A DNA stretch of 64,000 nucleotides, taken from the NCBI GenBank assembly GCA_019113395.1, contig DXHL01000021.1, positions 180,237 through 244,236 on the forward strand. The letters are read 5' to 3'. Both the position numbers and the translations under genes were made by a program. This document shows positions 15,152 through 63,873 of this stretch, piece by piece (the first letter of the stretch is position 1; every line of letters starts with the position of its first letter). The DNA comes from Candidatus Rikenella faecigallinarum. Its GTDB lineage: Bacteria > Bacteroidota > Bacteroidia > Bacteroidales > Rikenellaceae. The notes under the pieces are model-generated. The model saw nothing but the letters and a program-made list of their open reading frames with translations, made no database searches and had not been told where the DNA came from.

Positions 15152-15775
15152 GGTCGTAAGGACGCTTTCCCGGGGGCCGACGGCAGCACGATACTGCAAA
15201 CAGGAAACCCTAATGCACAGACTATTCCAATTTATGGAGCTGACGGAAGTTTATTGACCGAGGAGAGCACATTAGGATTACGATTTATAAAGATTACGAC
15301 AAGTGGCATATTGAGCGAAAACACCTCTCAAGTTTATGCGATTAAAAATCCGCTTGTATTTATTTGTGGAGTGTCATCTCTGTACGACTGGTATACTGAG
15401 TCTTTTCAGAACAATGCTTTGTGGGGCGATAATGTCGAGAAAAGTGCTTATGACCCTTGTCCCGCTGATTGGCGCGTACCAACAGATGCCTCCCTTACCT
15501 TCGGAGATATAACAGTAGAGACTACAACGGTATCCGGTACAGGAAGGGAAGTCGCCAATGGAAGGACTTATCAATCTATGGCCTGGTTTCCAATGGCCGG
15601 ACGTCGTAACAACGACAGTGGTACTTTGCGCTACGTAGGTGGTAGCAGTTGTTCTTGGTCTGCTTCTATTAGCGATACATACTCAATAAGTTTATACTAT
15701 GATACGAGCAATGTCGGCTCTGATTATCTTTACTCCCGGGCCTATGGACAAATGATTCGTTGCGTACAGGAGTAA
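15152..15775 (+). pseudogene. cassette A: start-less FISUMP-type C-terminal domain (silent donor cassette candidate)
   Basis: Open frame GRKDAFPGADGSTILQTGNPNAQTIPIYGADG...AIKNPLVFI...DPCPADWRVPTD...MIRCVQE*, preceded by in-frame TGA (15146-15148) and no ATG. Track start (TTG 15254) is internal. Confidence 0.8.
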
Positions 15776-15938: not shown

Positions 15939-16340
15939 GTGCCGCTCGGCACTCGAACCAAACTGCACAGTCAAGGCAGTACCTCAGGTCGAAGCCGGCG
16001 GAGCATGCTCGCCTCAGAGCAGGCCTCCGCATGCGGCGGCTTCGGCCTGACACGAATTGCAAGCCATTCGCATTCTATTGCGGACACAAGTCGGCTCGAG
16101 CGCCGAGCGGCACCTCGGGAGCAGCCGGCGGAGAAATGCAAACAATGTGCGGTAGCGCATTTTTGCGGTTCTCCGCATCCCACCGGCTGCGAACCGCAAC
16201 GGTTGCTCGCGCAACCGCAGCTTCTCGGACAATCATTCCCGCCTCTTTCTGTCAGCGCCAACCCCCGAGCGGCACCCGCAGCCAGCCAAGGGGATCAGGA
16301 GTTTTTGGGGAGTATTTCGCCCCTCCGGCTCCTGCCGCTT
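15939..16340 (+). repeat. hairpin-array flank of cassette A
   Basis: Successive imperfect palindromes, e.g. caggtcgaagccggcgga...gcggcttcggcctg and ggttgctcgcgcaacc; homologous to other cassette flanks. Confidence 0.75.
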
Positions 16341-34117: not shown

Positions 34118-34131
34118 TTATGGGGATATTG

Positions 34132-34746
34132 GGCCGCAAGGACGCATTTCCGGGGGCCGACGGCAGCACGATAGGTTCCACCCTCCAAACTATGTTAATT
34201 TATGACAGTAATAACACTCCACTGACTGATGGAAGTACGGGCGTAAAATTAGTGGATATTACAACGGAGGATGTATTGAATGAAAATATCGCACAAGTTT
34301 ATGCCCATAAGAATCCATTGACATTTATTTATAACGTAGACAATCTTGGGGATTGGTATACCAATAATTTTAGTTTTCAGGATAATATGTTGTGGGGGGA
34401 TAAGGATAAAAAGAGTGTGTTCGACCCGTGCCCCGCAGGTTGGCAGGTACCGACAGATTCAGAAAAGACATTTGGAGACTTTTCGACTACTACCATGACC
34501 TTATCGGGTTGGGGTATGAATGTATCCAATGGGAGAACTTATAGCAATACTTCATGGTTTCCTGCAACAGGGTATCGTAACCGCACTAGTGGTACATTAT
34601 ACAGTGTTGGCAGCAACGGCTACTATTGGTCTGTTTCCGTGAGTGGCACGAATGCCAAGTACATGTACTTTTCTATGAGCGAAGTCATCCCTACCCGTAC
34701 CAATGGCCGCGGTTATGGTTTTTCGGTCCGTTGCATACAGGAGTAG
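34132..34746 (+). pseudogene. cassette B: start-less FISUMP-type C-terminal domain
   Basis: GRKDAFPGADGSTIGSTLQ...AHKNPLTFIYN...LWGDKDKKSVFDPCPAGWQVPTD...RGYGFSVRCIQE*. The track ATG at 34099 lies inside the lysS terminator hairpin. Confidence 0.82.
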
Positions 34747-34912
34747 CGTGAGGGAATCGAAGGAGCGGGATAAGGGGGAGTAATCCGCAGGGGTATCCGT
34801 GTAGGGGAAGAGGGGGAAGGCGCAGGGAGCCGCTCAGCCTCTCCTGGAGGGAAGAGAGTGCAAAGAGCAGATAAACCCCAGGCGAGGAAACCCGAACACG
34901 AGAAGGGAGTCC
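34747..34912 (+). repeat. cassette 3' constant box, copy B
   Basis: Near-identical to copies A, C and D. Confidence 0.9.
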
Positions 34913-35560
34913 CCACAGCATGACCCCTCCGACTTAACACCCAAGCGAAGCCGACTGCAGCAGCAGTCGTGCAGGCCGAAGCCGCCCCCAGCGGAGGCCT
35001 GCTCTGAGGCGAGCATGCCCCGCCGGCTTCGACCTGAGAACGCTTTGTGGCAAAACACAAATCGATTCGCGCACCAAACGGCACCGGGTTGCCTCAGCAA
35101 AACGTATTCCCCGCTGCCGGCGAAGTGTGAGGTAAACACAAATCAGCTGGAGTCCCCGGCAACACCCGCAGCCAGAGAAGGGAAGAGAGAGCACGCCGCG
35201 CGGGCACTCTTTCAGCCCTTCGCCGGGGATGGCTGCGGGCTGACGGTTTCTAACGAAACCGTAGCGGCTCAGACTATTATTCCCTCCTCTTTCGGCGGCA
35301 CCGCCTCCCCCGCTGGCTGCGGCCTGACACAACTTCTGCGAAGTCGCATTCGATTTAATAACACAAGTCGGTTCGCGTGCAGAGCGGCACCCGGACGGAT
35401 CCAGTGGAGGACACGCGAGAAGCGCAGGCCTCCGCAGCCCTCCGCAGCCCGATGGCTTCGGCCTGTCACGGTTGCTCACGCAACCGCAGGCTTTTGTCAA
35501 TACAATTCGGTTCGGGTGCCGCTGGGTACTCCAGCCAAGCCGCCTCTACCCTCTATACTT
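34913..35560 (+). repeat. hairpin-array flank of cassette B
   Basis: Palindromes caggccgaagccg...cggcttcgacctg, cccgcagcca...tggctgcggg, acttctgcgaagt, ggtttctaacgaaacc, ggttgctcacgcaacc. Confidence 0.8.
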
Positions 35561-54429: not shown

Positions 54430-55284
54430 GCCACCGTGTCCAACCGCAGGTGCCGCGGGCACTCCGAGAAAGAGTTTGCTCGACGAATAAGCGGAGGCTG
54501 TCCTTGTGGAGCAATCCCGCCGGCTTCGACCTGAAGTGTTAGCTCCACACATCCAACTAATTAATATTCGGCAAAAGCGGTTGCGCAGCAACCGTGTCAG
54601 GCCGGAGCCATCGGGCTGCGGAGGCCTGCGCTTCTCGCGCGTCCTCCACTGGCTCCGTCCGGGTGCCGCTCGGCGCTCGAACCGACTTGTGTTATTAAAT
54701 CAAATGCGATTTCGCAGAAATTGTGTCAGGCAGCAGGTTCCGTCGGGTATAGTAACCGACTCTTGTCTGAAAGATTCGGTTTCGTTAGAAACCGTCAGCC
54801 CGCAGCCACCCCGGCGAAGGGCTGAAAGAGTGCCCGCGCGGCGTGCTCTCTCTTCCCTTCGCTGGCTGCGGGTACTGCCGGGTACTTCTGCTGATTTGTG
54901 TTTACCTCACACTCTGCCGGCAGCGGGGAATACGTTTTGCATTTTCAGATAGGCCCTGTGAAGTAAGGGGTAGAGGCAGCGCGGCACTCGAGCCGACTCG
55001 TGTCTGTCTGTAGAGTGCGGCATCGTGAAGACCGGAGCCGGCGGAGGCGGAAAAGCGAACCCGTGCGGGTGAGTTTTTCAGCCCTCCGCATGGGTCGGCT
55101 CCGGTCTGACGAGTTGCCTCAGCAACCCGGTGCCGTTTGATACACGAATCGATTTGTGTTTTGCCATAAAGCGTTCTCAGGACGGAACCAGTGGGGGATT
55201 GCGCCTTAGCGCAGGCCTCCACCGAGGGTGGTTCCGGCCTGACATAGGGAGTTTGCTCTGCCTATGTTTGACGCCATAGCTTGA
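54430..55284 (-). repeat. hairpin-array flank of cassette C
   Basis: Palindromes cagcccgcagcca...tggctgcggg, gaccggagccggcggagg...cctccgc..ggctccggtc, cggtttcgttagaaaccg, atttcgcagaaat; homologous to B flank. Confidence 0.8.
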
Positions 55285-55451: not shown

Positions 55452-56102
55452 CTACTCCTGCACGCAACGGACGGATACGCTATATCCTCGACTACTTGTG
55501 CTGTTAGGAGAAATATTTGTCATCTGATAATATAAGCGTTTAACAGCATTTATTTCATTAATTGAGGAAGACCAAAAAGCAGCATTAAGACCTACATAAT
55601 ACAAAACTCCTGAGGTAGCATATCGTGTTCCAGAAGAGGGATACCAAGCCAACTGGTTGTATAATCGACCATTCAGAGCGGATTTGTTTCCAGAAGAGGA
55701 TAACATACCTTCATTGTAATGTGGAGCGGATGTAGTAGAAAAATCTCCCCATGTTATTTCTGCATCTGTTGGTATTCTCCACCCTTTTGGACAGGGATCA
55801 TAATTGCTTTTTTTGTTTCCATCACCCCATAAATCATCATTTTGGTAAATCACATTGTTGGTGTACCAGTCCCATGGAGATGCTGTATTGTAAATAAAGG
55901 ATAGAGGATGCTTTATCGCATAATTTTGTGAATTAGCACCATTCATTACGTCTGCAGTTGTGATATTTACTTTGCCATATCCTGTACCATCCTCTGATAA
56001 TTTTTCGCCTGAGGCTCCATAAATTGGTATGGTTGTGGCATTTTGTCCATCAATTTGAGTTATCGTGCTGCCGTCGGCGCCCGGGAAACCGTCCTTGCGG
56101 CC
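55452..56102 (-). pseudogene. cassette C: start-less FISUMP-type C-terminal domain
   Basis: (LYQW)GRKDGFPGADGSTITQIDGQ...AIKHPLSFIYN...DPCPKGWRIPTD...RGYSVSVRCVQE*. The ORF upstream of 56102 runs through a terminator hairpin, so the track start is artefactual. Confidence 0.82.
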
Positions 56103-56128
56103 CCACTGGTACAAATGACGACGCTTAA

Positions 56129-63344: not shown

Positions 63345-63873
63345 GAATATGCTTTACTTCAAACTCTGCTGGTTGGAGTGTCCAGCGGCACCAGCTTTCC
63401 ATATGGGTCGGCTCCGCTTGACATTAGGAGTTGATAAGCTGTCGTTTGGCTTGCCAGCCAATTCGTGTTTGAGCACAAGCAGTTGCGGTTCTCAGCCGCC
63501 CGAATGCGGAGAGCCAGTGCCGCTGGGCACCCGAGCCGACTTGTGTCTACCCCATACTTCGCAGGCTGCAATTCGAGGCAAACTGCCTGTAGAATGCGAC
63601 TTCGTTAGAAGTCGTGCAGGCCGAAGCCGCCCCCAGCGGAGGCCTGCTCTGAGGCGAGCACGCTCCGCCGGCTTCGACCTGAGAACTTTGTGTAGTCTGA
63701 TATAAGTCTGTTCGGGTACCGCTCGGCACCCGGAGCCGGCGGAGGCAAAAAAGCGAACCCGAACGGGTGAGTTTTCAGCCCTCCGCATCCGGGCGGCTCC
63801 GGGCTGACGGGTTGCCTCAGCAACCCGAGGGGATAGAAGGAATATTTGTTTTCAGTTATAGCATACGGTATTG
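63345..63873 (-). repeat. hairpin-array flank of cassette D
   Basis: gacttcgttagaagtc, caggccgaagccg...cggcttcgacctg, gagccggcggagg...cctccgc..ggctccgggctg, gggttgcctcagcaaccc. Confidence 0.8.

Follow-up and report, generated by a model that had tools for sequence, protein, structure and literature searches.

Arrays of covarying palindromic repeats in Candidatus Rikenella faecigallinarum: a probable REP/BIME-like mosaic family beside putative silent lipoprotein cassettes

Among repeat systems described in bacteria, two seem closest to the arrays that we analysed in Candidatus Rikenella faecigallinarum (GCA_019113395.1), namely REP/BIME elements as the nearest structural kind and, as a functional analogy, the Neisseria pilS loci lying in NIME arrays. 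REP/BIME elements of the GTAG and CGTC super-families are dispersed intergenic palindromes, often occurring as pairs of opposite orientation, and CGTC REPs, which have no dedicated transposase, were reported in Bacteroidetes (PMC3733652). TnpA-REP subclass 2.6 of the Bacteroidetes displays atypical repeated secondary structures (PMC6006769). The neisserial intergenic mosaic elements (dRS3/RS arrays) surround the silent pilS loci, forming intergenic mosaics of hundreds of base pairs that contain short inverted repeats, lie near surface genes and contain the silent cassettes that act as donors in gene conversion (PMC3898611). In Neisseria pilE/pilS, as in Borrelia vls, such silent cassettes supply tracts to one expressed gene for a surface lipoprotein or a pilin (PMC2632889, PMC3898611). 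Similar traits recur in the dispersed palindromic repeat family of the arrays described here, which we named X, and in the putative silent cassettes next to them.

Unless another contig or locus is named, coordinates refer to the window, that is, the whole stretch of 64,000 nt of contig DXHL01000021.1 that was analysed. Within it, array B (34913-35560) contains three X units, scored with a covariance model (R1, see below): B1 (34945..35037, minus strand; 94.3 bits) with its long and small hairpin, B2 (35162..35268, plus strand; 30.0 bits) with the core GCAGCC/GGCTGC and the small hairpin GGTTTC-TAAC-GAAACC (35245-35260, plus strand), and B3 (35390..35493, plus strand; 46.8 bits), in which the long hairpin is interrupted and the small one reads GGTTGC-TCAC-GCAACC. 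These are followed by a Y module, GGTGCCGCTGGG...CTCTACCC (35514..35552, plus strand), which elsewhere forms the apex of X units and of which dispersed copies were found in the R. faecigallinarum genome and in G002 and G006. Further units lie in array A (A1, 15984..16077, 92.8 bits, and A2, 16115..16224, 38.4 bits, both plus strand), in array C (C4, 54571..54663, 73.5 bits, and C3, 54770..54878, 38.7 bits, on the minus strand; C2, 55027..55135, 42.4 bits, and C1, 55177..55271, 58.3 bits, on the plus strand) and in array D (D2, 63590..63682, minus strand, 104.3 bits; D1, 63723..63833, plus strand, 36.3 bits). Six of seven distinct window units folded with z-scores of -3.1 to -6.0 (B1 -4.5, B2 -5.4, C4 -3.1, C3 -6.0), zero or one of 200 dinucleotide shuffles being as good, and the seventh, B3, gave a weaker fold (z -2.3; 4 of 200). 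The hairpins named by the first-pass annotation are all present at the sequence level, including GACTTC-GTTA-GAAGTC at 63598 and GGGTTGC-CTCA-GCAACCC at 63809. Its example of a compensatory change is likewise real, as a single C:G to T:A swap separates the small hairpin ACTTC-TGC-GAAGT of array B (plus strand) from its array C counterpart ATTTC-TGC-GAAAT (54709-54721, minus strand); the former, however, occupies 35332..35344 and not a position shifted by one to 35333. In contrast, GGTTTC-TAAC-GAAACC (35245) and CGGTTTC-GTTA-GAAACCG (54777), which had been presented as different stems, are reverse complements, i.e. the identical sequence on opposite strands.

The X unit measures about 93-110 nt and is bipartite, consisting of a long imperfect hairpin, a linker of 3-5 nt and a small hairpin of 6-7 bp such as CGACTTC-TAAC-GAAGTCG. 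In copies collected from stretches of the R. faecigallinarum genome, the 5' arm of the long hairpin is exemplified by CAGGTCGAAGCCG-GCGGAG and the 3' arm, which carries an asymmetric bulge, by CTCCGC-TGGGGG-CGGCTTCGGCCTG; the apex is variable and swapped among copies, and in some units is replaced by the Y module. The model R1 (93 nt, two hairpins, 32 pairs) was seeded with twelve units aligned without structure. Each X unit can furthermore adopt a second fold, in which the segment 5' of the 3' arm pairs with the end of that arm (CAGGCC/GGCCTG or CAGCCC/GGGCTG) to give a compact, REP-sized hairpin of ~34 nt. Covariation is seen in this compact hairpin too, with 94.2 % of cells paired and double changes in 79 of them; because it uses bases of the long hairpin, the two folds compete. 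Three congener loci (L249 697-1501, L250 and L248) show AT-rich palindromes, TTAACCNTANGGTTAA, between their X units.

X units are numerous and widely distributed. The stretches fetched from the R. faecigallinarum genome (2.07 Mb) hold 133 copies, and R1, run on 266 kb of its loci, matched 116 units at E<=0.01. With 150 candidates scored per genome, there were at least 126 matches in this genome and at least 113, 110, 105, 84, 83 and 53 in six of seven congeners, and none among the 150 candidates of G004, which belongs to the same genus and thus provides a natural negative control. Copies with the structure kept are also present in the sister genus g10. As to their surroundings, 89 of the 133 units have a cassette tail within 1 kb on their upstream side (48 are in sense and 41 in antisense orientation to the cassettes) and 44 lie elsewhere, and an X unit occurs in the 1 kb after 44 of 51 cassette tails, an association that is overstated, since the genome was read only as stretches around matches, picked partly by their similarity to array B.

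That hairpin arrays are a feature of cassette flanks, as had been claimed for this DNA, did not withstand comparison with the congeners. Matches to FISUMP, the domain type of the cassettes, numbered 32 in the R. faecigallinarum genome, 6 in G003, 5 in G005, 4 in G002 and 2 in G001, and none was found in G004, G006 and G007. X units are thus not cassette parts, because G006 and G007 possess them (84 and 53) without a FISUMP match and arrays of G003 and G005 are free of cassettes, which rules out a cassette-specific element. The latter arrays are found at the lysS-secA locus, where the upstream gene is one that we take to be lysS from its sequence. X units occur downstream of this lysS-like gene in G000, G001, G002, G003 and G005. 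In G003 and G005, a convergent secA-like gene follows within ~800 and ~760 nt, respectively, and the gap, which could not hold both a cassette and an array, is mostly array (3-4 X units) and lacks a cassette, while G004 has kept the convergent secA with neither array nor cassette. We infer that at this locus the arrays came before the cassettes in this lineage. At the second locus compared, that of cassette C, the array did not prove to be conserved in position: none was detected within 1.5 kb in G001, G005 or G004, and G006 gave only a weak partial match.

The first-pass annotation had argued that the structure is conserved by compensatory base changes, and this was borne out in two independent sets of units, each aligned by fitting to R1. 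Among the 116 units of the R. faecigallinarum genome, both partners had changed in 28 of the 32 pairs (525 cells), and 92.9 % of cells were paired, with a covariation score of 0.382 compared to 0.152 for shuffled alignments and at most 0.082 when partners were slid. The 81 distinct congener units gave almost the same picture (27 of 32 pairs, 340 cells, 94.7 % paired; score 0.351 vs 0.114 shuffled and 0.057 slid). Under a tree-aware null in which tree and substitution count are held fixed, an R-scape-like procedure used in place of R-scape, 6 of 32 structure pairs in the R. faecigallinarum genome reached E<0.05, along with three further pairs, two of them inside the small hairpin and one belonging to the compact hairpin; in the congeners, 8 of 30 structure pairs and no other pair did so. 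The covariation hence exceeds phylogenetic expectation in both sets, and the outcome that had been named as fatal to the claim, no covariation above that expectation, did not occur. In an alignment of 62 units made without structure, the top covarying pairs traced these helices again as antidiagonals, with only three pairs at E<0.05, one of these in the small-hairpin loop. What covariation shows is that pairing has been maintained among related gut bacteria; taken alone, it leaves selection for a folded molecule, template switching and exchange of units as alternative causes.

Our best reading of X is a new REP/BIME-like mosaic family. The arrays would probably be mosaics of this family that spread as DNA palindromes, with the cassettes, as a separate matter, acting as silent donors. 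X units may be kept and spread through copy-to-copy exchange, possibly aided by an activity on single-stranded hairpins. Like REPs, they contain a short palindrome that lies between genes and has a copy number in the range of tens to thousands, although the full X unit is longer, and the mixed orientations and interleaved Y modules correspond to a BIME-type mosaic array. Unlike REP/BIME, X is a bipartite unit of 93 nt whose long and compact folds compete. No GTAG tag occurs at the hairpin foot, and the CGTC and TGTC foot tags, carried by only 58 of 116 units in R. faecigallinarum and by about 4 of 86 in the congeners, are not conserved, for which reason membership in the CGTC REPs was discarded. 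Furthermore, and unlike TnpA-REP subclass 2.6, X comes without an associated Y1 tyrosine transposase: a search for PF01797 detected none in the R. faecigallinarum genome or the six congeners searched (G001 and G003 to G007), and RAYT/Y1 as its mobiliser was dropped for want of an intact gene in these genomes. A broken Y1/RAYT copy in the sister-genus genome G016 was the sole one among eight relatives searched, leaving X with no known mobiliser. This speaks against our reading, as do the poorly kept tags, the size of the X unit, the G.T excess described below and the lack of positional conservation beside cassette C.

How did the paired changes arise? When changes were reconstructed on the tree, steps to G.T in the long hairpin exceeded those to A.C (~53:21 in the R. 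faecigallinarum genome and ~35:15 in the congeners), and many single-sided intermediates were seen. The small hairpin displayed no such strand asymmetry and had changed mostly by concerted one-step doubles (~38 vs 14 single transitions in the R. faecigallinarum genome, 43 vs 10 in the congeners). Replication template switching, a documented mechanism, can yield paired changes without selection for a folded product (PMC8794818). It is therefore conceivable, if rather doubtful, that the covariation involves no function at all and that pairing is upheld by template switching and by swaps of whole hairpins between array copies. The concerted doubles of the small hairpin fit this explanation, as does a stretch of 97 % identity that G003 and G005 have at different places in their arrays; the intermediates and the G.T bias of the long hairpin speak against it, and persistence across genus-level divergence suggests some maintenance.

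The first-pass annotation had concluded from covariation that a functional folded DNA or RNA must exist. This does not follow, as the units occur in both orientations (48:41), the asymmetry is confined to the long hairpin and the small hairpin evolves through concerted doubles, so that neither an RNA nor functional selection is proven. Still, the G.T excess hints that one strand matters in the long hairpin, where alone strand-specific folding is suggestive; for the X unit as a whole this idea was abandoned. X shares with structured RNA families strongly covarying helices beyond phylogeny, and the G.T excess is what would be expected if the X strand folds. Nevertheless, a functional structured RNA, either a small RNA or a cis-acting 3'-UTR element whose fold is under selection, appears unlikely to us, given that both orientations occur within arrays, loops and most unpaired columns are variable, no X unit matched Rfam at E<=5, the small hairpin lacks strand asymmetry, and the family is wholly missing from the congener G004.

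Quite improbable, in our estimation, is that the X hairpins serve as a single-stranded DNA signal for an enzyme that is neither of the Y1 nor of the integron type and that both spreads the repeats and seeds new silent cassettes at their side. Finally, attC-like single-strand recombination sites mobilising the cassettes can be set aside as highly improbable, for although the bulged long hairpin with its exchangeable apex lies beside gene cassettes and follows 44 of 51 cassette tails within 1 kb, no integron integrase (TIGR02249) scored over cut-off in any of eight genomes (the best matches miss profile positions ~185-237), X units are frequent away from cassettes, and the homology blocks at both cassette ends together with the tract-chimera expressed copy fit homologous conversion.

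Returning to the reading of the arrays as REP/BIME-like mosaics, the cassettes next to them would be explained separately. In the window, silent cassette B (34131..34746, plus strand) covers a FISUMP-type domain in its C-terminal part, beginning with GRKDAFPGADGSTI, a start common to ~37 copies, and ending in a CIQE-stop (Fib_succ_major 2.2e-6, below the Pfam cut-off). It is followed by a conserved G-rich tail of ~160 nt (34747..34911, plus strand), of which 40 copies in the R. faecigallinarum genome are 89-100 % identical. Cassette A (15152..15775, plus strand) has an in-frame stop two codons upstream, and cassette C lies at 55452..56103 on the minus strand. The tail and its equivalents at A, C and D show regular G-runs, a possible G-quadruplex that recalls pilE, and are also the homology that the cassettes have in common at their 3' ends. 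In this genome, no fewer than 39 complete cassettes and 51 tail matches were counted. The complete ones begin with GRKD[A/G/C]FPGADGSTI or close to it, and their C-terminal stop is of the CVQE or CIQE type; most lie directly 3' of a neighbouring gene's end. They have homology blocks in common at both ends. Of their internal 30-mers, just 10 of 20138 are shared. The reading frames of the window cassettes and of the 39 complete copies stay open despite their silent look.

A candidate expression gene was found on contig C6 (3-1886, minus strand), where a DUF4906 lipoprotein-like gene runs in frame into a cassette and is cut by the contig end. The first 203 nt of its cassette part, up to the contig end, form a mosaic of silent copies, equal to cassette C28_38288 over approximately the first 100 nt (3 early mismatches) and then to C21_7548 exactly, even though complete cassettes have hardly any internal 30-mers in common. 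This one chimera is sequence evidence of templated, segmental conversion, on the basis of which the cassettes look like silent donors for one lipoprotein gene. Ten contigs (C2, C6, C17, C20, C24, C25, C30, C33, C34 and C35) break within a cassette or next to one, which repeats would be expected to cause, as would a population mixed at the expression gene. A 691-aa ORF on contig C9, also considered as the expression gene, proved to be a lipoprotein of a fimbrillin-like cluster without a GRKD cassette; this cluster (C9:35500-41408, L039) contains two large lipoprotein-like genes, both with FISUMP/Lcl-like domains at their ends.

The cassettes would thus donate segments, by gene conversion, to a single lipoprotein gene that is expressed, and might adjoin arrays because these are non-coding, repeat-rich and gene-adjacent, so that they tolerate duplications and readily permit homologous recombination. 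Unlike those of vls and pilE, the cassettes are scattered over the chromosome after unrelated genes and encode a FISUMP-type domain, placed behind DUF4906 in the expression gene; they are known from a single assembly, and the closest named relative that turned up, at 51 % identity, is an uncultured Rikenella MAG. Unlike NIMEs, X units are longer, have two hairpins with covarying stems and another sequence, belong to another phylum and are known here without a phage integrase target. Within the set of papers searched, none relevant to silent copies in Bacteroidetes or Bacteroidales came to light.

X thus represents a covariation-backed palindromic repeat family without a known transposase, whose presence in six congeners and absence from a seventh lends itself to a comparative study of how REP-like elements spread and are kept up. 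If the role proposed for the cassettes is true, variation of a surface lipoprotein by gene conversion would extend to gut Bacteroidales, with a large scattered silent repertoire and a two-donor chimera.
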